DNA of 24,457 bases. It comes from a virus. The notes under the pieces were generated by a model. That model worked only from the letters and a program-made list of their open reading frames with translations, had not been told where the DNA came from and ran no database searches. Shown piece by piece: positions 4,797 through 20,644 of this stretch. Position 1 is the first letter of the stretch; each line of letters starts with the position of its first letter. A program made the position numbers and the translations under genes. Location of the stretch: IMG/VR virus record IMGVR_UViG_3300020184_000033, positions 1-24,457 of that record; one strand, given 5' to 3'.

Positions 4797-7700
4797 TTAG
4801 TCCCTGTTGTACAACTTGTCTATTTCTTCACGCATATCTTGGCGCAAACTGTCTATCTCAGCGTACAGTGCGTCGTAATCTGGCGCTCCAGACCGCAGTT
4901 CTTCACGCTTAACGCGGGATACAGCGATGCCATAGTCTCGTATGATCTGACGCTCAGCTATCTGCTTGTACATGGTTTCTTCTGTCACGTTGGGGTTGTA
5001 GAACTTCAGTCCAGCGGCTCTGGCGAACAGCATCGGGGATACGTCCCTACCACTTATCGTCGTGCCACCTTCGATAAAGTCTATTGCCTTGCCCACGTTA
5101 CGAGTACTAATTACAGGCGGTAGCGCCATATCAACAACCATACCAATGTTGTTTAGCGTAACATCCAGCGCACTGTCTGTAGGATCGTTGATCTTCTTGC
5201 CTGTGTACGTGTCAGTATTCATAAACATACCGGCAAGCATGACAAGCGGCCCGTTGGGGCTGAAGCCTCCCGGCCAGTTCTCATAGCCCAAGAAACCAGC
5301 AGGTGTACCGCGCATGGTGCTTGACAGCGGTATGTAGTCGCCCAAACGGAAATAAACAGGATTCTCGTCGTCACCCATGAACGGTATACGGATCATGGAA
5401 TTTGGGCCTGAATTGAAAAACAGTTTCTCGTTGTACATCTTGCCGAGGCGGTTACGGTCTTCTTCGTCCTCACCAGCCAGAGCAGACATTGCCGCATCAA
5501 GAAGTGCGTACGATGTCAGTACGTTGGCTATCATCCAAGGCCGCGTCACAGCAATCTTGCCGAGCATGGGTATCGCGGCGTATGTCCACGAAGCAAACGG
5601 CATGACGGTCTGACGCGCATACTGTAAGTACTTGGCGTCGATGTCGTAGTTTAAAAACGCATCGCGTCCAAAGTCACCAGCCTGCCTCCATTGGTCAGCG
5701 GTCAAAGCCGCGCCGTCATTGGCTGACTGAAGCTCTCCCGCACGGTTCATAAACGCGGCTAGACGGAACACGTTATCTTCAGCGGCGTAAAGCTCCAACA
5801 AGTTACGATCTTTCTCAAGAATGTAATTGCCCATCGCCTTAACGTTATCTGATTCAAGTCGTAATAGCTCAGACACGCGACCCATAACGCCTCTGTTGTC
5901 GTTGTCAGGCTTAATTTTGTCTCGCATCTCACGATACTTGGTCTTCTTGACTTCAGAAGCCGAGAAGTTGCCCAACAACGCACCAGACTTCTCAAACTCT
6001 TTAAGGAGAAGTAGCTGATCCTTAGTCAACGCGCCACGATTGCGTGAGACTCTGTATAAGATGCTTGCGGCTTCTTTTAGGGTCTTGAAGGTAATCCCGT
6101 GCATCATCATGATTGACACGTTTGATGCTACGTTGGTGATGTGCGTACCGGGGTTACGTGTCGTTTTAGACAGTTTGAACTGCCGCAGAGCTTCGTTGTA
6201 AGTACGCATAGCCCCTTTGTCGAACATGGTGTGCTTGCTCGACATGTCTTGGATAGCCGCATACACAGGGCCAGACACAATTTTCCCTGCCAGATCGCCC
6301 CACACTTTGACGGGTACACCCTCTGCTTTTAGGGCGGTTGTATCTGGTATCTTAATTAGCGTGCCTTGGCGACGGAACTCATCTGCAACTGCTCCCGTCT
6401 GAAGCTCAGCCGCGCTAGCTGTCTGCACTTCTTTGCTATAGGGGCGTACGGTTTCGCCTTCAGCGGCAGTCATTTCAAGGTAGCGGTTATATTCAGCTAC
6501 GTCTTTGAACACCACAGGCACTTCGCCCCGCTCAAATGCGGCGGGGTCTATGTTACCGTTGGCGTTTCTGCCGATGTTAGCTAGACCAGAGAGAAACTTC
6601 TTAGACGCATAATAAGTACCCAACGTGTTGGCAGTGTTAAGTATGGCAACGCCAATCTGGTCAGCCGCCTGCATTTTATTTGCGTCTTTTAGGGCTTCGG
6701 CAACGCTCTTGTTAGTAGTAAAGGTAAACCGCTTCCCCGGCAAATCCTTACCAGACCACTTGGCGTTCATGTCTATTGGGAAAGACTCACCCTTGTCGTT
6801 GTCTATGGTTATGCCACCAGCGGCGTTTGCTTGGTCTTCCCGAACAAAGCCAATAGTCTTTGTGGGGTCTAAGCGACCTTGCGTCTCTCCCATAACGCGG
6901 TAGTACACAGCGCTAGAGTCAAACACATCGCCTTCTTTCTTGAGTCCTAACCACTCTGGGTTGTCATTCTTTTCAAGATCCTGCTTACGCCCACCAAAAA
7001 TCTGGCTCAGCTTACGTTGCCCAACAGTACCACTGCCGATGTCAGTTTCTTTTTCGACAAAGATCAACGATTCGCTGAACTTACGCCCGTCAAAGAACTG
7101 CTTATAAGTTTCGGGTAGAGCAGTCTTAAATTCCTCTATCGTCTCAAGCAGGTTGTCTGCGCGAGTTTTCAACAACTCAGCGTCCGGCACGCCGTTAAGC
7201 GCCGCTTTGTTACCGTCTAAGTAATCAATAAACTTCTGCGCAGTAGCAATGTCGCGCTGGATAAGATCGCGCAGGTGGTTAGACACAAGCTCGGCAAGCT
7301 GTACGCCGGTATGTTTCTCGTTCTTGAACATCTGGAATACTTTTTTCAGCGTTTCGCCAAACGCCAACTGAGGATTGAACTTGCGCAGTATTTTCTCTGC
7401 GCCGGGGAACGCCTTAATAACGGCCTCGCGCACTTCAGTAACCAGCGTCTTCAGCTTACCTTGGAAATCTTGCGGCAGTGCCTTGCCCAGAAGGTCGAAT
7501 ATAGGCTTAGTTAAGCCGTAAGTGCCTTGGGTGCCATACTTGCGCAAATCTACCTGCTCGGCAGGTTTAACGGCTGTTCCCCCACGGACAGACTGCTTGA
7601 GAACCTTGCCCCTTCTGCTAGGCTTGCCACCTTCTTTACGAGCTTTGTTCAATAACGACACTGTTGAGTTAAGAATGTCGTTAGCCGCCGTGTTCTCTAC

Positions 7701-10700
7701 ACCTAGGAACTTAGATACTAGTTCAGTGAGGTACCGCCACACGTTATTAACGGCGTCTAAAAACGTTTTAGACTCGGCGTCGCGTGCTTTTACCTTAGTA
7801 GTTAGCTCTTTAAACTCAGACAGCGTGTTACCGTAGGAGATAAGCTCAAGCACAGCATCAAGCTCAGCTTGGGGAGCGAAAGCGCCGTCTTTCCTTTGCT
7901 GGCCGCGCACGTTCTGCAACGTGTTAACAACGTCTATAGCAGTCTGTTTATCTTGCGCAGACATACTAGTAACTTTGTCGAGACGCCCGGCTTGTACGAA
8001 ATCAACTATATCTGTGAGTGTGTTTTTAAGCAGAGTGACTTCTGGAGCCGTTTGGTTCCGATATACGTAGCCTTGCAGGGCTACGTGTAGGGACTCGTGT
8101 ACGATTTCTTCTGGCGTGGTAGCGCGCCGCAAGTAGACTGTATCGTCTTTAGGGTCGTAGTAGCTGTTCGCTTCGTCGGTAAACTTCACTGACGCATCTT
8201 GCTGACGCTCACGCAGAGTATCAATCAACATCTTGCGTAATGCCAACGTACCTACGCGCGGCGTGCCGCGTCCCGGAGCACCTACAAGGTTTAGGATACC
8301 GCGCAGTCCTTTCTCTTTACCGAACTTTTTGGTTCTACCTTTGCCCTCAGTAGCGGCGGTCTCTAAATCAGCGATAAAGCCAGCGTCAACTTCTTCACTA
8401 GATAACCGCTTTTGGCGACCTTCTGGAGCAGTCTGTGTAACCCCCTCTAACGCGCCATCTTTATACGCAGCCCAAGCATTAGATAGGACTACATCAACTT
8501 TATTTAGGTATTGCCCGCGAGTATCAGTCCTAGCTTTTTCGCCGAACAGTTCTTTCATGTACGGCTTAATCTTGCCATCTACTTTGCTGGACTTGTTCTT
8601 GTCTTTTTGCGCAGCTAGTTTGTTTATGGCTATCAGCGCGTCTACAGTATTTGCGCTACCAGCTACGCGAACAAGTTCGTCCATAGCTGTCTTAGTTTCT
8701 GCTGCTAAAGCCTGTAGTTGCTCGGCGTTAGCGCCAGCCATGTCCACAGCGCCTTGGTCAGACAACCCCTCTGCTTGCTTAGCGTCAACTAGATTCTGCC
8801 TAGCATTATTGTATGCTCTGGCAGCTACAACAGCCTTTTTGAACGCTTCGTGAACCTCAGTCATTTTTGCGCTGAAGGTATCCGTGGTGTCTGCGTCTCT
8901 AGCAGGGGAACCTTGTTGGCGGACTATAGGCTTAGGGTTAGGCTTAGTAGAGCGCATCATCTCTACCACGCCCTTCAACACTTGCTGGGGCAACGATATA
9001 TCGCCGCTAACCTTTCCGACTTTAGAGGAAACTTCGGCTTTCAAGACCTGCGCTACGTCAGAGTCATCCACCATAGCCGCTTCTTCAACTTCTTCCTCGG
9101 TGACAAGCTCTTCCTCGGGTGCCGTGGTCTGCACTACTTCGCCGCGTGTTTCTTCTTGGACTGCGGCTGGCTCAACAATAGGAGAAGTAGGCTCTACCGT
9201 AGGCACTTGCTCTTGCTCGACATCAACAGTGGTTACTGCCTCTTCTACAGGAGCGGCTTCTAAGTTGGCTTCTCTGTCTATCTGCGCCTGCTCTACTTGT
9301 GCCTGCCCTTGCTCTGGAGTCAATCTACCTTTGCGTACACGCACTAACGCCTTGCGAGCGGCTTTGCCACGAGCATCGACCTCTAAACTATCGCGCAGCT
9401 TATCTATGTGGTACTCAAGCGCAAACAACTGGGCACCTTGTTCGCTGTACTCATTACGCTGGTCGAACTCCATAGAGGCAATAGCGATCTCTAAATCGCG
9501 TCGCTCTTCAGCGGTCTCTTGGGCGCGTTGCTCGGCAGCTTTACGCAGCTTAGCTGCTTTTCTGCCTCTAACGCGCTTACCTATGTTGGGTGATGATTCC
9601 GCCTCTAGTTTAGCTAGGCGGTCTCTGGCTTCAGCAAGTGCCTCGTCTTCTGGCATTGTTTGGTTAAGCTCAGCCAACTTCTCTTCTGCGGCTTTAAGCT
9701 CAAGCCTTGTAGCTTCTCGCTCGCGCGAGTTCATACGCTGTTTAGCTAACTTCTCTAGCTCCTCAACGCCGTTAGTATCTGCGGCTATTGCATCAACTTG
9801 TTCGTCTAGTTGCTCATCAGTTAGAGTAAGTTTGCTGCGTAAGCGACGCTGCTCCTCAATGTACTGCTCTTTGTACCGGAGGATGTCTTCTGGTGTGGAT
9901 ATAACTTTCTCATCAGGCTTAGCATCTTTGGGCTTGAACGTAGCGCTAACAGCACCGGAGAAGCCACCGCCAACTAACGCGCCAGCAACCACTGCATTAA
10001 GGCGACGAGAGGCTATTTCTTCTGGCGACAAATCGTCCCGCATACCGATCTCAAGCTCGGTTTGGAATGCCTCCGTTGCGCCTTCTGCAACAGCACCGCC
10101 GACAAGAGCCTTGCCACCACGACCAAGCCTAGTAGTTGGTACGGTAGTTGTAGCGCCTCCGCCAGCCAGATTGATTTCTCTAGTTGCAGCTACACCGGGG
10201 ACACCAAGACCCCTAACTACACGACCGAGGGCAAACGGCACGGCGGCTTCAGCGGCGGCGTAGGGTATACCACCAAGTAGGGCACCGGAGGCGTCTCTTT
10301 CGCCGCCTTCTACAGACTCGTTGTACAGAGAACCAACACCATACATATAACCAGTGCCTAGCGCGCCTACGCCAGCACCAAAACCCAAACCGCCAGTAGC
10401 TAAGCCAGCAGCGGCTATGCCACCCATAATTGGTATTTGCTGACCAAACTGCCCACCAGCGTAGCTTAACGCGTCGCCAACACCTTGGATGTCTTCTACA
10501 CGCTGCGGAACTTCTGGGTTAATAGATAGGGCGGCTTGCGCTTGCTGGGCGCGGACTTCCGACTCAAGAGTGTTTCTTAGACCCGTAGCACCTAGAGCTT
10601 CTGCAACAGCGGCACCAGCGCCAGCGGCCATAGCTTGTACTTGATCTACTCCAGCGGACGCGCCAGAAGCTATGGCAGAGCGCCCCATACCAGTCTTAAC

Positions 10701-10835
10701 GCCAAACTTAGATGCTACCTTAAAAGGGTCTTGCCCGGTGCCTCTAGCGTATTCTAGTACAAGCTCTTCGTCGCTTTTGCTGGCGTACTCTTCGCTTACT
10801 TGGCTACGTAAATCTTGAAGGGTGAAAATTGCCAC
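4797..10835 (-). CDS. Giant internal virion / DNA-ejection protein with metallopeptidase motif
   Basis: 2012 aa, the largest protein here, at the position T7 gp16 would hold after two other internal proteins. Visible parts: a short N-terminal domain (1-50); a Gly/Ala-rich hydrophobic stretch (about 125-170); long charged coiled coils (about 310-500); an acidic Pro/Val/Glu linker (about 525-595); a zinc-metallopeptidase motif HESLH (His913-Glu914-His917), with a candidate third ligand in ELDAVLELISYG further on; and a C-terminal region resembling the large-polyvalent-protein-associated family (KTTRNPGTHITNV), with a membrane-like segment near 1744-1787. It probably leaves the capsid with the DNA and helps form the channel across the cell envelope. 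The GTG start overlaps the preceding stop (TAGTG) and has GGGGGGA upstream. Peptidase activity is inferred from the motif only. Confidence 0.85.
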   Translation of the reverse strand: MAIFTLQDLRSQVSEEYASKSDEELVLEYARGTGQDPFKVASKFGVKTGMGRSAIASGASAGVDQVQAMAAGAGAAVAEALGATGLRNTLESEVRAQQAQAALSINPEVPQRVEDIQGVGDALSYAGGQFGQQIPIMGGIAAAGLATGGLGFGAGVGALGTGYMYGVGSLYNESVEGGERDASGALLGGIPYAAAEAAVPFALGRVVRGLGVPGVAATREINLAGGGATTTVPTTRLGRGGKALVGGAVAEGATEAFQTELEIGMRDDLSPEEIASRRLNAVVAGALVGGGFSGAVSATFKPKDAKPDEKVISTPEDILRYKEQYIEEQRRLRSKLTLTDEQLDEQVDAIAADTNGVEELEKLAKQRMNSREREATRLELKAAEEKLAELNQTMPEDEALAEARDRLAKLEAESSPNIGKRVRGRKAAKLRKAAEQRAQETAEERRDLEIAIASMEFDQRNEYSEQGAQLFALEYHIDKLRDSLEVDARGKAARKALVRVRKGRLTPEQGQAQVEQAQIDREANLEAAPVEEAVTTVDVEQEQVPTVEPTSPIVEPAAVQEETRGEVVQTTAPEEELVTEEEVEEAAMVDDSDVAQVLKAEVSSKVGKVSGDISLPQQVLKGVVEMMRSTKPNPKPIVRQQGSPARDADTTDTFSAKMTEVHEAFKKAVVAARAYNNARQNLVDAKQAEGLSDQGAVDMAGANAEQLQALAAETKTAMDELVRVAGSANTVDALIAINKLAAQKDKNKSSKVDGKIKPYMKELFGEKARTDTRGQYLNKVDVVLSNAWAAYKDGALEGVTQTAPEGRQKRLSSEEVDAGFIADLETAATEGKGRTKKFGKEKGLRGILNLVGAPGRGTPRVGTLALRKMLIDTLRERQQDASVKFTDEANSYYDPKDDTVYLRRATTPEEIVHESLHVALQGYVYRNQTAPEVTLLKNTLTDIVDFVQAGRLDKVTSMSAQDKQTAIDVVNTLQNVRGQQRKDGAFAPQAELDAVLELISYGNTLSEFKELTTKVKARDAESKTFLDAVNNVWRYLTELVSKFLGVENTAANDILNSTVSLLNKARKEGGKPSRRGKVLKQSVRGGTAVKPAEQVDLRKYGTQGTYGLTKPIFDLLGKALPQDFQGKLKTLVTEVREAVIKAFPGAEKILRKFNPQLAFGETLKKVFQMFKNEKHTGVQLAELVSNHLRDLIQRDIATAQKFIDYLDGNKAALNGVPDAELLKTRADNLLETIEEFKTALPETYKQFFDGRKFSESLIFVEKETDIGSGTVGQRKLSQIFGGRKQDLEKNDNPEWLGLKKEGDVFDSSAVYYRVMGETQGRLDPTKTIGFVREDQANAAGGITIDNDKGESFPIDMNAKWSGKDLPGKRFTFTTNKSVAEALKDANKMQAADQIGVAILNTANTLGTYYASKKFLSGLANIGRNANGNIDPAAFERGEVPVVFKDVAEYNRYLEMTAAEGETVRPYSKEVQTASAAELQTGAVADEFRRQGTLIKIPDTTALKAEGVPVKVWGDLAGKIVSGPVYAAIQDMSSKHTMFDKGAMRTYNEALRQFKLSKTTRNPGTHITNVASNVSIMMMHGITFKTLKEAASILYRVSRNRGALTKDQLLLLKEFEKSGALLGNFSASEVKKTKYREMRDKIKPDNDNRGVMGRVSELLRLESDNVKAMGNYILEKDRNLLELYAAEDNVFRLAAFMNRAGELQSANDGAALTADQWRQAGDFGRDAFLNYDIDAKYLQYARQTVMPFASWTYAAIPMLGKIAVTRPWMIANVLTSYALLDAAMSALAGEDEEDRNRLGKMYNEKLFFNSGPNSMIRIPFMGDDENPVYFRLGDYIPLSSTMRGTPAGFLGYENWPGGFSPNGPLVMLAGMFMNTDTYTGKKINDPTDSALDVTLNNIGMVVDMALPPVISTRNVGKAIDFIEGGTTISGRDVSPMLFARAAGLKFYNPNVTEETMYKQIAERQIIRDYGIAVSRVKREELRSGAPDYDALYAEIDSLRQDMREEIDKLYNRD

Positions 10836-11185
10836 TACTTTAATCCCCCCATAATCTTTCTAACGTATGGCTCAGTTTCGCTGCGTTTAGGTAATGCCGC
10901 GTAGTTTTTGCCCGCTTTCAAAAACTTGTCAGCGTTGCCGGGGCCAGCGTTATAGGCGACTAAAGCAGTTTCAAGATCGCCGTCGTAACGACGTAACATG
11001 GCAGACAAATAGTCTGTTGCGAATCGCCTACTTTCAACGGGGTCGAATGGGTTGCTTATTGGTTTAACACCAAATCCGGGGTCGCGCCCAGTCGCAGGCA
11101 TAACTTGTGTTAATCCCTGTGCCCCTACCGCACTTACAGCGTTAGGGTTACCGCCACTTTCGGCTAGGATAAGCTGGTCAATCAC
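10835..11185 (-). CDS. Lytic transglycosylase (SLT) domain, probably made as a -1 frameshift extension
   Basis: The 116-aa frame from GTG at 11185 is a soluble lytic transglycosylase domain: AESGGNP with the catalytic Glu (residue 9), GAQGLTQVMP, and DLETALVAYNAGPG. It cuts peptidoglycan strands, in this context during DNA entry. The GTG has no convincing ribosome site and would leave only eight residues before the catalytic Glu. The same frame is open upstream to 11264 and encodes further domain-like residues (LEPIATINEV). It lies -1 to the preceding 572-aa gene, whose end carries a slippery site. I infer translation as the C-terminus of a 708-aa fusion, adding 136 residues from 11245, with catalytic Glu at about 601. 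Its stop overlaps the next gene's GTG. Confidence 0.85.
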   Translation of the reverse strand: MIDQLILAESGGNPNAVSAVGAQGLTQVMPATGRDPGFGVKPISNPFDPVESRRFATDYLSAMLRRYDGDLETALVAYNAGPGNADKFLKAGKNYAALPKRSETEPYVRKIMGGLK

Positions 11186-11215
11186 CTCATTTATCGTTGC
11201 TATCGGTTCTAGGGC

Positions 11216-11257
11216 GGCTTGAGGCGTGTCCCCAAGCCCTGCTACTTTCCCAAATTT
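11216..11257 (-). promoter_or_regulatory. Predicted programmed -1 ribosomal frameshift site
   Basis: On the minus strand the end of the 572-aa frame reads A-AAT-TTG-GGA-AAG-TAG. Three overlapping heptamers fit X-XXY-YYZ in the zero frame: AAATTTG, TTTGGGA and GGGAAAG. The last ends just before the stop. After a 6-base spacer (TAGCAG) comes a hairpin with arms GGCTTGGGG and CCTCAAGCC (9 pairs, one G-U) and a 5-base loop ACACG, at 11238-11216. The -1 frame is open into the SLT domain. GGGAAAG is the slippery sequence known from lambda G-T. Confidence 0.8.
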
Positions 11258-12960
11258 GTGCCCCTACGTCTAGCCAATTCTGCCGCAATAACCCCTTGCC
11301 TTTCGCCGGTTGCTCGCTGAGCCGCTTGCATTAACTCTTGGTCTGAAATGTTCGTTAGTGGCCTACCCTCTCTGATATTTCTGTCGATTGAGATGTCAAC
11401 GTTCGACGCGGCTATACCCTGTTGTACGTAGTCAACGCCTCCGCCGATGGCACCTATTACAGCCCTAGTGGGAGTGCCAATAATCTCATCCAGCGTAGCA
11501 CCGTACTTCTTATCAGGCGTTGGGCCAAGTCCAGTTTCTTTAGCTGGAGCCGAACCGCCGCGCATGGAGTCTGGTGCGTCTGGGCCACCACCCATATCTT
11601 CCCCACTAACACCAAGAACCCCCGCGTAAGGTGCCAGCATCGCAAACACAGCGCCGTCTATTTGGGCTTTTTTGTCGTCACTAAGATTAGCATACGAACC
11701 ATAGTCGCCAAGCAACTCGCCAACAAGGTCTTTACGCAGAGTCATAAAGTCGTTCATGTTCTCTATGCCTTGTTGAAAACGCTCTGCTGCTAATTTGTTG
11801 GCGGAAAGCTCAGCGGCGGCGTACGATTGCGCACCCAAGAAAGGGTCTTGCACTGTTTCTTGGAAGTTAGCTCTAGCCGCTGCTTCGTTGGGGTAAGACC
11901 TGCGCATAACCTCTTTGCCAAAGTTAGGGTGAGCGCCAATGTCGTTGTAGTAAACAACATCAACCGCGCCTGTTTTCTCATTTTTTTCTATTTTTACGAC
12001 TTCATCAGGTGTGATCTCATTGTCATCGGAAACCATAGTCGCAAGATCATCTAACGTCTTAGCCTTTTGCATTTTGGCGTCTAAGCGCGCGGAGCCTATC
12101 TCTTGGAACGCACTATCTACACCGTAGATGCCCTGCGCCATAGCCTGCTGGTCTTTAATGTCTAGCGCCTTAAACTCTGGAGTCTCACGGAACTCCATAG
12201 GGGTTCCTTTAAATGTAGAATACGCGTCAGATGCCGCTGAAATACGTCGCATACTGTCGAGTTCTAAATCCTTAAAGTCTATATTTAGAGCGGTAAGTTC
12301 GTTTTGCAAGGCTGTTGTTTCTTGAGCTAATTTTAACCGCTCGTCTGCACGCCCTTCGCCGCGCATGGCGCGTTCTTCTGCTAAAACGTCTTGCTGCTTT
12401 TGGTACTCTGTCTGTTCCATCTGGACAGCGCGCCCGAGTGCTTTGTCAGCCTCATCGGTATAGCCAAGTCCCCGCAGTTTGTCAGCGCGTAAACGCTCGA
12501 CAGCGGATTCGCTCATGGGTACATATTCGCCAGTGGGACGGCGAGGTTCTTGCATCGCTCCTGCTAATTGCTCGGGCGACAGACCAGTAGCGCTTGTAAT
12601 AACGTCGGGAGCCGCCGCATTAGGGGGTAGACCTAAGCTAGCACGTTGTTCGTTAGACAACCCGACAGGGGGTAGTTGTCGTGCTGTACCCATGCCGACC
12701 ATAGCGGCTTGTTGCTCGGGCGACAGACCAGTGGCGCTTGGAGCCTGTGGCATAACCGCTTGTTGCTGTTGCGCGCCAGTCATGCCGGTTGTTGCGTCTT
12801 GCGTCCCAATGCCGTACTGTCGCTCAGCGTTAGCCTGCTGTGCGGCTTTTATCTGCTCCTCAACTTCCCGCATCTGACGAGCGCGCTTGACTTGGTTGTA
12901 TTGGTCAATGGCACCTTCTACGGCTAGCTGCCCAGCGCGCATTCCTGCTGCAAATCCCAT
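11242..12960 (-). CDS. Internal virion / ejection protein (gp15-like position)
   Basis: 572-aa Gln/Ala/Glu-rich protein, second of three large genes that match the T7 gp14-gp15-gp16 order. The N-terminus (MGFAAGMRAGQLAVEGAIDQ) and the following helix resemble phage internal core proteins. Residues about 74-131 hold repeats of the type SATGLSPEQ and GLSNEQ. Long helical, coiled-coil-like stretches follow (about 175-300). A Gly-rich region near 465-480 precedes the C-terminus. No enzyme motif is visible in this frame. The start overlaps the preceding stop (TAATG). At the 3' end a slippery sequence and hairpin predict that some ribosomes shift to -1 and add an SLT transglycosylase domain. The gp15-like label rests on position and composition, not on clear sequence similarity. 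Confidence 0.85.
   Translation of the reverse strand: MGFAAGMRAGQLAVEGAIDQYNQVKRARQMREVEEQIKAAQQANAERQYGIGTQDATTGMTGAQQQQAVMPQAPSATGLSPEQQAAMVGMGTARQLPPVGLSNEQRASLGLPPNAAAPDVITSATGLSPEQLAGAMQEPRRPTGEYVPMSESAVERLRADKLRGLGYTDEADKALGRAVQMEQTEYQKQQDVLAEERAMRGEGRADERLKLAQETTALQNELTALNIDFKDLELDSMRRISAASDAYSTFKGTPMEFRETPEFKALDIKDQQAMAQGIYGVDSAFQEIGSARLDAKMQKAKTLDDLATMVSDDNEITPDEVVKIEKNEKTGAVDVVYYNDIGAHPNFGKEVMRRSYPNEAAARANFQETVQDPFLGAQSYAAAELSANKLAAERFQQGIENMNDFMTLRKDLVGELLGDYGSYANLSDDKKAQIDGAVFAMLAPYAGVLGVSGEDMGGGPDAPDSMRGGSAPAKETGLGPTPDKKYGATLDEIIGTPTRAVIGAIGGGVDYVQQGIAASNVDISIDRNIREGRPLTNISDQELMQAAQRATGERQGVIAAELARRRGTNLGK
12568..12595 (-). repeat. 28-bp direct repeat, copy 1
   Basis: This 28-base stretch differs by one base from the copy at 12712-12739. 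Both encode the peptide SATGLSPEQ within the 572-aa ejection protein. Confidence 0.9.
12712..12739 (-). repeat. 28-bp direct repeat, copy 2
   Basis: Partner of 12568-12595, 27 of 28 bases identical. A weaker third unit (PVGLSNEQ) lies between them at the protein level, which suggests internal duplication. Confidence 0.9.
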
Positions 12961-13988
12961 TACACAACCTCCTCAGTTACTTCTATCATGCGCATTCCTA
13001 GCTCGGCGTAGTCAACAGCCGCGTAGCCAAGATCGTCATAATGCACTGCGCTTGGGAACATTGGTTCAACTTCATCAGCCATTACACCACGGAATCTTCG
13101 GTTTGGTTCACCAACGTAGTTGAACTCGTAAATATTCAAGCCACTGTTCATATCGACTTCAATGAACACGATGTCTTCTTTAAGTCGTCGGTCTGACATA
13201 CCCATAGCGGCACCTGCCAAACCAGTTAATCCGCCGAAGATAGCGCCTTGCCGTTCAAGCTGCGAGCCGTACACGCTAGTTTGGCTGTTAAGTATGTTGC
13301 CATAGCCCTGCATTCCAAGCCCGTAGCCTTGCATCATCGTGCCAGCGCCAGCGCCGTAACCTTGCATCATAATCTGCCCCGGCATCTGGTATGTACCAGC
13401 ACCAGCGGAACCGGCCCCTACGGAGCCTGCGTAAGCGGCGGCAGACGCCCCAGCCAGATTACGACCCAAACCTGCGGCGTCTAGCTGTCTAGCGTAACCA
13501 AGCTGTTCAGCCCGTTCCCTTGCGCCAGTCATTTGTTGGGATCGTGAAGCGGCTTGAGAAACTGATGATTGGGCACGTAACGCACGAGCGGCGGCAGAGT
13601 TGGGGTTTAGCCCCCGTGCAGCGTCAGCCCTAGCTTGTGATCGCTGGATGTTAGTAAACGCGCGCCCTGCGGCTGCGGCGGCTTCTCCCGCCATACGCTC
13701 ACGATAAGACTCTGTACTAAATTCCTGCGCTTGTTGCACCAGTCCTTGTTCCAGAGGCCGGAACGTTCCTACTTGGTAATCGTAGTAATCTTGCGCTTGT
13801 GCTAACTGCTGTTGCTGAGCGGCTATTTGTCCTTGTGCAACTTCAGTCAGAATAGGCGACAGGTATTCGAACTGCTCTCGTGAAAAGTCAATTTGCTGTT
13901 GGCCCAGATCACGAGCAACGTCAACGGCTTCCCTAGATACCGCCGCTAATTCAGTATAATCTGGCGCTGATGAGGATTTTCCACCCAT
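12960..13988 (-). CDS. Internal virion protein (gp14-like position) ending in an S74-type domain
   Basis: 342 aa. The N-terminal two thirds are Ala/Gln/Arg-rich helices (residues about 15-180), as in small phage ejection proteins. A Gly-rich linker with three MQGYG units follows (about 205-230). The C-terminus from about residue 264 (MSDRRLKEDI, YEFNYVGEPNRRFRGVMADEVEPMFPSAV, VDYAELG) matches the peptidase S74 intramolecular chaperone family, best known from tail spikes and fibres, where it trimerises and cuts itself off. The usual catalytic Ser after the LKEDI block is not obvious to me, so self-cleavage is uncertain. It is the first of the three presumed ejection genes. The start is one base after the upstream stop. 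Confidence 0.85.
   Translation of the reverse strand: MGGKSSSAPDYTELAAVSREAVDVARDLGQQQIDFSREQFEYLSPILTEVAQGQIAAQQQQLAQAQDYYDYQVGTFRPLEQGLVQQAQEFSTESYRERMAGEAAAAAGRAFTNIQRSQARADAARGLNPNSAAARALRAQSSVSQAASRSQQMTGARERAEQLGYARQLDAAGLGRNLAGASAAAYAGSVGAGSAGAGTYQMPGQIMMQGYGAGAGTMMQGYGLGMQGYGNILNSQTSVYGSQLERQGAIFGGLTGLAGAAMGMSDRRLKEDIVFIEVDMNSGLNIYEFNYVGEPNRRFRGVMADEVEPMFPSAVHYDDLGYAAVDYAELGMRMIEVTEEVV
13299..13370 (-). repeat. MQGYG coding repeats
   Basis: Three units encoding MQGYG occur at 13299-13313, 13320-13334 and 13353-13367, in a Gly/Met-rich linker between the helical part and the S74-like domain of the 342-aa protein. Confidence 0.8.
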
Positions 13989-13989
13989 T

Positions 13990-14421
13990 TTAGAACTCCC
14001 AACGTTCTCTAGCAGCTTCTTCGGTTATCACTAATACCATCATGTCAGCGCCTACAGCCGCGTCTTTCATAATAAATTCTTCGCTAAAACCTAATTTTTT
14101 GTCAAAACTAATGATATCTGGTTCATTTGTTGGCACCATGCCAGTTAGACGCTTTAGTTTACACTTGTTAAACGCATAATCACAGACCGCACGGAACAAG
14201 TTTATCATAGCTTTAGAGGGTATATCGACCGCTATATGCACGGTAGCGTTGGCTCCGTTAAAGTTGTTGAACACAACTCCTGCGGTAACCTGAGACCCGC
14301 GCATTGTTCCCATGGCATAGTACCCGCCCCAGCTTGAGGTTTGATTAACTTTCGCTGCAACCCACGCGGCGATAAGGTCTTTGCGGTCAAAGACTAGGCG
14401 GTGTTGGGAACTCAACGTCAT
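13990..14421 (-). CDS. Divergent GNAT-type acetyltransferase-like protein
   Basis: 143 aa with a GNAT-like layout. A strand region (YYAMGTMRGSQVTAGVVFNNF) is followed by VHIAVDIPSKAMINLFRAVCDYAFNKC and then LKRLTGMVPTNEPDIISFDKKLGFSEE, where the Asn and KLGF match the usual C-terminal half of GNAT enzymes. The acetyl-CoA loop motif R/Q-x-x-G-x-G/A is not visible, so acyl transfer is doubtful or the fold is modified. Genes of this type occur in phage structural clusters, and a target in the virion is possible but not shown. The ATG overlaps the tail chaperone gene by 35 bases with only a weak ribosome site, so translational coupling is likely. Confidence 0.7.
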   Translation of the reverse strand: MTLSSQHRLVFDRKDLIAAWVAAKVNQTSSWGGYYAMGTMRGSQVTAGVVFNNFNGANATVHIAVDIPSKAMINLFRAVCDYAFNKCKLKRLTGMVPTNEPDIISFDKKLGFSEEFIMKDAAVGADMMVLVITEEAARERWEF

Positions 14422-19874: not shown

Positions 19875-20243
19875 TCAGTAGCTCCAAATAGCAGGATTAG
19901 GCAAATCCAGCGCGGCATCCAAATGGATAAACCGCTTAGAGTGTGGCCCAGACTGGTTAACGCCTACTCGTTTTATACCATGTTCTAGCGCCAATTCAAG
20001 CAATCTATGGGCTTTCCACCCACTAATTTGGATATCCACTGCTTTACCTGTGCAGTGGGCACCAGTGCCGGGGTGTTCTTTAGCCGCTTCTATAGGGTGC
20101 CCAGAGCACCGATAACCACTAGAAACGGGGAGAGGGAAACCGCAAGAAACACGAATAACGTTAAGAAGGCGTAAAAAGTCCTCATCAAAGCGGTAAACCC
20201 CACAATGCTGGCATTTAAGCTCAGCTTCGGAAAAATAACTCAT
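19875..20243 (-). CDS. Endolysin, M15 family peptidase
   Basis: 122 aa, a single-domain cell-wall peptidase of the Peptidase_M15_3 type. The family signature is visible: SSGYRC (41-46), GAHCTGKAVDI with zinc ligands His63 and Asp70, and RFIHLD with His107. It would cut peptide bonds in peptidoglycan to release phage. An N-terminal CQHC pair (Cys11, Cys14) and Cys34 may add a small metal or disulfide site. No signal peptide is seen, so it needs the holin encoded directly upstream. The start overlaps the holin stop (ATGA). Confidence 0.9.
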   Translation of the reverse strand: MSYFSEAELKCQHCGVYRFDEDFLRLLNVIRVSCGFPLPVSSGYRCSGHPIEAAKEHPGTGAHCTGKAVDIQISGWKAHRLLELALEHGIKRVGVNQSGPHSKRFIHLDAALDLPNPAIWSY

Positions 20244-20644
20244 TTTTTAAGCGTCTGAGCTATTTTTTCTCCACTACGACCTATAATGTAGCCGCCTAAG
20301 CCTATTTGGATGACGCCATACAAAGCGTCGTAGTCGGCCTGTTGCAGTCCTTCGGCAGAAAAACCAAACCAGCGGGCCACAACTAGGCTTAGAAAAGTAA
20401 GCATGGTTATTGGACGCCAGTTGGCTGTTAGCCAATGCTTTGATGACGCTTCAGCGTGAATGATTTTAGATTTGCCCTCAAGCATGGACTTTTCATATTC
20501 AAACACGCGCTGCATGGCGGCAGCTTGAACGTCGAGCAAGTGCCCTTGAGCTTTAAGTCTTTCTTCTTCGGAGGTGTGTAATTCATCAACAAGTTCAGCA
20601 GCAGGCTTAAATATCCCCGCGATTAGGTCTGTAATTGCTAGCAT
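20240..20644 (-). CDS. Holin, 3TM / GTA-release type
   Basis: 134 aa. A helical N-terminal half (LVDELHTSEEERLKAQGHLL) is followed by SSKHWLTANWRPITMLTFLS and a membrane segment (about 76-95), then a second membrane segment ending GGYIIGRSGEKIAQ (about 108-128). The WRPITML and GGYxxGRSxEK motifs identify the holin family first described for gene-transfer-agent release (Holin_3TM). It forms holes that let the endolysin reach the wall. The ATG shares a base with the upstream stop (TAATG), and the endolysin gene follows at once. Confidence 0.9.
   Translation of the reverse strand: MLAITDLIAGIFKPAAELVDELHTSEEERLKAQGHLLDVQAAAMQRVFEYEKSMLEGKSKIIHAEASSKHWLTANWRPITMLTFLSLVVARWFGFSAEGLQQADYDALYGVIQIGLGGYIIGRSGEKIAQTLKK

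Follow-up and report, generated by a model that had tools for sequence, protein, structure and literature searches.

A probable programmed −1 frameshift site joining an SLT lytic transglycosylase domain to a putative internal virion protein

The locus and its gene neighbourhood

The window analysed here is a stretch of viral DNA of 24,457 bases (IMG/VR virus record IMGVR_UViG_3300020184_000033), and the site of interest lies on its minus strand (Table 1). A gene of 572 aa terminates at this site with the codons GGC ACA AAT TTG GGA AAG TAG, which hold three overlapping, in-phase heptamers of the form X_XXY_YYZ. The last of these, G_GGA_AAG, adjoins the stop codon and is the slippery heptamer of lambda G/GT; AAATTTG and TTTGGGA are found in the window only and are not kept in the related loci L007 and L089. 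Six nucleotides past GGGAAAG begins a hairpin of 9 bp, including one G.U pair (GGCUUGGGG-ACACG-CCUCAAGCC), with a dG of −15.9 kcal/mol, a value that 4 of 200 shuffled versions of the 42-nt stretch also reached; within the window region, an equally strong hairpin at equal spacing occurs at 0.08% of positions. An earlier note on this DNA had described the gene ending with its three heptamers, the hairpin and an open −1 frame leading into an SLT domain. The first of these is exact base for base, the second was found where it had been placed, and the third is borne out by a match to PF01464 (E 2.6e-22, 79 bits against a curated cut-off of 21.3). An SD-like element upstream of the heptamer is a possible further stimulator, although 4–6% of positions score equally well.

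In the window, the 0 and −1 frames share only 19 nt, and a slip would therefore be confined to the heptamer run or directly beside it. The −1 frame then reads V-AGLGDTPQ..., followed by the SLT domain, and a slip at GGGAAAG would extend the 572 residues by 136, yielding a product of 708 aa. The catalytic Glu (codon 11161-11159 in the window) and an AESGG motif are invariant in an alignment of the three lineages that carry the domain. By profile and catalytic motif, the extension is an SLT lytic transglycosylase, for which cleavage of peptidoglycan is predicted.

Table 1. Features at the putative frameshift site and in the adjoining genes; positions are those of the window unless a relative is named.
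Feature	Position	Strand	Basis or remark
Acyl-CoA N-acyltransferase-like protein (phrog_4470)	13990..14421	−	PHROG match
342-aa virion structural protein (phrog_8003), C-terminal Peptidase_S74	12960..13988	−	Profiles; syntenic upstream neighbour
0-frame gene, 572 aa	11242..12960	−	ORF; homologues in >10 clades
SD-like AGGGG, 9 nt 5' of the heptamer, possible stimulator	11261..11265	−	Sequence
Overlapping in-phase heptamers AAATTTG, TTTGGGA, GGGAAAG	11257-11251, 11254-11248, 11251-11245	−	Sequence
Slippery heptamer G_GGA_AAG	11245..11251	−	Sole heptamer common to all SLT lineages
0-frame stop TAG, adjoining the 3' side of the heptamer	11242..11244	−	TAA in relatives
Hairpin, 6 nt past GGGAAAG	11216..11238	−	Folding; other stem at equal distance in L007/L089
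−1 frame extension, 136 aa, GTA (Val) to TAG	10835..11245	−	Translation of the −1 frame
SLT lytic transglycosylase domain	10907..11185	−	PF01464; Glu invariant in alignment
GTG, the window's sole in-frame start candidate ahead of the catalytic Glu	11183..11185	−	Absent in relatives
Overlap of SLT stop and giant-gene start	10833-10837; L007 5391-5398; L089 5702-5706		
Giant 2012-aa protein, gp16 position, without SLT	4797..10835	−	ORF, profile search

Genes for an internal virion protein (phrog_511), a tail fibre/tip protein, a fibre assembly protein and the N-acyltransferase precede the structural, 572-aa and giant proteins. This block resembles the order found in T7-like and Pelagibacter phages (tail tubular B, acetyltransferase, internal virion proteins), which suggests that the 572-aa protein is an internal (ejected) virion protein in the gp15 position. 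The earlier note had called it an ejection protein; gene order agrees with that name, whereas sequence, profile, hhalign and Foldseek searches returned no family, PDB, PHROG or fold match, so that the name reflects the position of the gene. The AlphaFold model of the protein is of low quality (pLDDT 57) and led to no informative Foldseek hit, which makes the negative outcome of the fold search a weak one. No PDB, PHROG, hhalign or Foldseek link to T7-like gp15/gp16 was found for the giant protein, no homologue of either the 572-aa or the 2012-aa protein was found among GenBank phages, and the genes searched in the window and in L007 included no tape measure gene.

Lysis genes lie elsewhere: the window has a holin and another endolysin in adjacent genes (19875-20243 and 20240-20644), and L007 has a holin and an amidase. 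The SLT domain is therefore probably not the lysis enzyme. The holin family, phrog_3427, is common to the window and L007 (L212 3987-4810), whereas the endolysin beside it is of a peptidase/endolysin type, phrog_894, in the window and an amidase, phrog_822, in L007; by these assignments, the lysis enzyme is swapped between the two relatives.

Relatives with and without the SLT domain

An SLT domain occupies the equivalent spot in three divergent lineages, all metagenomic, and these constitute the conservation evidence. The first is the window; the second is L007 (IMGVR 3300031658_000030, 39 kb), recovered by a search with the SLT domain; the third comprises L083/L089 and L084/L090, where L083 and L084 were recovered by profile search, together with L097, recovered by motif search, with identical SLT domains in L089 and L097. 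The homologues of the 572-aa protein in the other two lineages are at most 31% identical to that of the window. In L007, the homologue has 540 aa (31% identity) and ends CCG GGA AAG TAA, with the SLT domain following in the −1 frame, and those in L083 and L084 have 597 codons and end GGA AAG TAA. All three lineages thus have GGGAAAG adjoining a TAR stop, a stem beginning exactly 6 nt further on and an SLT domain in the −1 frame, and the 0 and −1 frames overlap by 19, 25 and 31 nt, with G_GGA_AAG inside each overlap. A start of the stem at +6 nt falls within the range of about 5–9 nt that is typical of bacterial-type stimulators. The stem itself reads GAGGGU/GCCCUC in L007 and L089 as against GGCUUGGGG/CCUCAAGCC in the window, and the hairpin in these two relatives is modest (about −10 kcal/mol; 1% of positions are as good). 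Both also have an SD-like GAGGG 8 nt upstream of the heptamer. Since L007 and L089 share the junction sequence, independent replication of the signal is only about two-fold.

Other relatives lack the domain. The giant protein of L082 is 91% identical to that of the window over the first 1200 residues. The L082 counterpart of the 572-aa protein can be aligned with it through to a shared C-terminal end, which reads ...ELARRQAAQ where the window has ...ELARRRGTNLGK. This gene ends at TAA with neither the heptamer nor an SLT domain, the giant gene begins 11 nt further on, and no SLT domain was found on the L082 contig, which is a fragment. Similarly, neither the domain nor the heptamer was found in L085, L086, L088 and the further homologue loci that were fetched. 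A syntenic set of 80 loci was fetched by means of the preceding 342-aa gene, and the end of the 572-aa-type gene was readable in 71 examined loci, 3 with the SLT domain and 68 without. All 3 loci of the former kind end in GGGAAAG, as against 0 of the 68 of the latter (Fisher p of about 7e-5, a statistic that ignores relatedness and redundancy among the loci), the heptamer being missing where the domain is missing. The single chance heptamer among the 68, TTTAAAA, has only 4 open codons behind it. As the relatives without the domain end at the equivalent 0-frame stop, this stop is an ordinary gene end. Judged by these comparisons, heptamer, hairpin and SLT domain come as a cassette.

In-frame X_XXY_YYZ heptamers occur at 0.3% of codon positions, and the background rate of in-frame GGGAAAG is 4e-5 per codon. 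Among 895 distinct ORFs, from the loci fetched up to that scan, 6 have an X_XXY_YYZ heptamer at the stop and 3 have GGGAAAG there, the latter being exactly the three SLT lineages. Two further loci served as a positive control for the scan: frames of 271 codons in L081 (near 1058) and 210 codons in L125 (near 849) end with GGGAAAC or AAAAAAC, located 3 nt before the stop in L081 and directly at it in L125, and are followed by a −1 extension of 75–85 codons (LLKANGAAWELYAHWRFGG...). They resemble classical tail assembly chaperone frameshifts.

The SLT domain of the window (10835-11185) is 57–71% identical to in-frame SLT domains of L002-L006 and L008, which sit in unrelated large proteins on other virus contigs and have glycine-rich flanks of the GGGIVGFA type. 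On these comparisons, the domain is one that moves between protein hosts. In one tree, the SLT domain of the window is nearest to the in-frame domains of L003 and L002, and a single clade of the window and L007/L089 domains is not rejected (p-AU 0.12), so that the cassette may have acquired its SLT domain once or twice. A search of genome contigs gave only SLT domains, at no more than 47% identity.

Translation of the SLT domain

The earlier note had held that GTG 11185 is the only start available to the domain, that it lacks a ribosome site and that its use would trim the domain. The second point stands, as there is no properly spaced SD and a GAGG directly adjoins the GTG; the third does not, as a start there would retain the entire Pfam match and the catalytic Glu and lose only the residues preceding the match. 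In the window by itself, a short, free SLT protein could therefore be made, although an internal start at this GTG is unlikely. A stronger form of the claim about starts is met with in relatives. From the preceding stop to the catalytic Glu, ATG, GTG and TTG are all missing from the −1 frames of L007, L089 and L097, where the only start-like codons are ATT, ATC and CTG, and the first start lies 14–17 codons past the Glu. An internal start for these three was therefore ruled out, and an active SLT enzyme could hardly be made there except as a fusion. As far as the reading frames tell, the enzyme cannot plausibly be made by any route other than frameshifting in two of the three lineages.

The start-less linker is also constrained as protein. 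Over 58 aligned codons, L007 and L089 differ at 17, 2 and 13 first, second and third codon positions (dN 0.167, dS 0.344, dN/dS of about 0.5), and the gap in the alignment is four whole codons. The corresponding values for the SLT domain are dN 0.146 and dS 0.378 (dN/dS of about 0.4), and the domains of the window and L007 differ at 29, 26 and 75 positions, i.e., 75 of 130 differences fall at position 3. Going by these substitution patterns, the linker is under protein-level constraint in the −1 frame and the SLT domain is under purifying selection.

The signal shared between lineages, the start-less and constrained linker, and the tie between heptamer and SLT domain together make it very likely that a minority 708-aa fusion would be made. 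It can be said with considerable confidence, if on sequence evidence, that the 572-aa gene ends in a site of programmed −1 ribosomal frameshifting; the core claim of the earlier note, that such a shift appends the SLT domain to the 572-aa protein, is thus supported by comparative tests. Most ribosomes would terminate at the TAG and release the 572-aa protein. A minority would be delayed by the hairpin that begins 6 nt further on, with a possible contribution from the SD-like element upstream, and would slip from G_GGA_AAG to GGG_AAA, reading 136 more residues to give a 708-aa form with a C-terminal SLT domain. Some copies of a probable ejected virion protein would thereby acquire a peptidoglycan-cutting domain, which could open the wall locally. 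We infer slippage itself, its rate, the virion location, ejection and copy-number control.

The alternative that survives best, though it is itself unlikely to be the main explanation, accepts the frameshift as real and sees its principal role in delivering ribosomes to the giant gene by reinitiation, with attachment of the SLT domain as a side benefit. Such delivery would set the ratio of the 572-aa to the giant protein, and it is compatible with a programmed SLT fusion. It draws on the one-base overlap of the SLT stop and the giant-gene start, which is present in all SLT lineages (TAGTG in the window, where the start is a GTG, and TAATG in the other two), but not in L082, and which may couple the SLT frame and the giant gene. 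However, overlaps of this kind are frequent in phage operons, ribosomes could be recruited directly by the purine-rich GGGGGG that precedes the GTG of the window, and a conserved catalytic domain is left unexplained.

It is improbable that the SLT domain is a separate protein, whose translation begins internally at GTG 11185 or follows from termination and reinitiation close to the TAG, with the heptamer being incidental. The window would allow this, given that the Pfam match and catalytic Glu are retained from that GTG. The missing SD, the lack of any start before the Glu in L007, L089 and L097, the constraint on a linker that lies upstream of any start, and the association of heptamer and domain across syntenic loci all speak against it and for the programmed shift.

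A still smaller probability attaches to the splitting of a single 708-aa gene, whether by an error in sequencing or assembly or by a frameshift mutation of recent date, or to the SLT domain being a decaying pseudogene. A difference of one base would fuse the two frames, and the SLT domain is found in frame at the end of large proteins elsewhere (L043, L050 and Pelagibacter phage HTVC024P). Nevertheless, the identical −1 break occurs at the identical heptamer in three lineages, on different contigs and in different alleles, relatives that lack the domain end this gene at the equivalent 0-frame stop, and no uninterrupted frame fusing the 572-aa protein and SLT, which would have told against the earlier note, was found in the family. 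On the strength of the three-lineage conservation and purifying selection, both sequence error and pseudogene were rejected. Slippage by RNA polymerase, rather than the ribosome, would give an identical fusion protein but is scarcely credible, as transcriptional slippage normally requires much longer A or T runs than the longest homopolymer at the slip site (3 nt), and the fixed hairpin spacing and codon-phased heptamer fit ribosomes.

Comparison with known frameshifts

The phage frameshifts known so far mostly yield tail chaperones or non-catalytic added domains. Among the best characterised is that of the lambda G/GT tail assembly chaperone, in which a −1 shift extends a minority product (PMC5009743), as would be the case here. 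Lambda G and GT, however, are assembly factors that are absent from the virion and are not enzymes, and the carrier and neighbourhood differ in the window: the lambda-type context, in which a small chaperone gene is flanked by those for the major tail protein and the tape measure, was not found, the neighbours being the N-acyltransferase, the virion structural protein and the giant protein. In the T7/T3 capsid proteins gp10A/gp10B and other phage structural proteins, frameshifting adds C-terminal, often Ig-like, domains (PMC5009743). A minority of virion-protein copies gains a C-terminal domain in this way, similar to what is proposed for the window, but these additions are non-catalytic, whereas the addition in the window is an enzyme. 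In E. coli dnaX, a 5' SD stimulates the −1 frameshift (PMC5009743), and the arrangement of upstream SD-like element, slippery heptamer and downstream stem-loop resembles that of the window, although the dnaX shift shortens the product instead of extending it and the SD-like element of the window is weak.

The earlier note had also stated that frameshifting was not known as a means of loading a transglycosylase onto an ejection protein. This requires qualification, as a −1 frameshift linking an internal virion protein with an enzyme that degrades the wall had been predicted for gp39/gp40 of Alteromonas phage vB_AspP-H4/4 (MF278336; PMC5658483), the sole relevant precedent on frameshifting with a transglycosylase or internal virion protein found in the openly accessible literature. 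Its lysozyme-like gene (L207 32352-32850) ends GTA AAA AAG TAG, with A_AAA_AAG adjoining the TAG. As in the window, the predicted slip lies between the penultimate and the giant internal virion protein, with the heptamer abutting the stop. The polarity is the reverse of that in the window, however: the lysozyme-like enzyme is what the 0 frame encodes, and the giant protein is what the predicted shift would append. The H4/4 frameshift is known from annotation, no stimulator analysis or comparative support for it having been found in print, whereas the case in the window has comparative support. The relative R8W (L210 2960-3010) keeps the H4/4 heptamer, and its giant gene is additionally provided with an ATG and a ribosome site.

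Wall-cutting domains in comparable operon positions are otherwise read without a shift. The T7 gp16-type protein (L009; PDB 7eyb, 7k5c) shares with the window an SLT domain in the ejection block between the last two large proteins, but there the domain is constant and N-terminal in the giant protein, whereas in the window the giant protein lacks it and it is an optional addition to the preceding one. Gp47 of Pelagibacter phage HTVC024P likewise has a C-terminal SLT domain in a similar operon position, after an acetyltransferase and an internal virion protein B-like gene, yet every copy of it includes the domain in frame, and it shows no detectable homology with the 572-aa protein. What would be new here is thus the optional addition of a catalytic wall-cutting domain by frameshifting, as frameshifted extensions of structural proteins were already known.

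Dosing of a virion enzyme carried on an ejected protein is a plausible role, about as probable as its contrary. The chances are similarly balanced for the broader proposal that a cassette of GGGAAAG, stop, hairpin and SLT, gained and lost as a unit, doses a virion enzyme as well as coupling translation of the giant gene, and that it is the first well-supported case of this kind. If so, recoding would equip just part of the copies of a virion protein with a peptidoglycan-cutting enzyme, which would be one way of keeping down the copy number of a wall enzyme that is potentially self-damaging. The frameshift reading would also explain why gene callers miss the SLT domain, which has no start codon, and suggests that further frame-broken enzymes may be found in phage ejection operons, with H4/4 as the mirror case. 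In two other loci, L039 (4999-5030) and L040 (5036-5060), an SLT domain follows a frame of 407 and 257 codons, respectively, in the +1 frame. A single base separates stop and start in both (TAGCGTG and TAACGTG), with no visible SD and with CCC TAG in L039; this is probably ordinary translational coupling.
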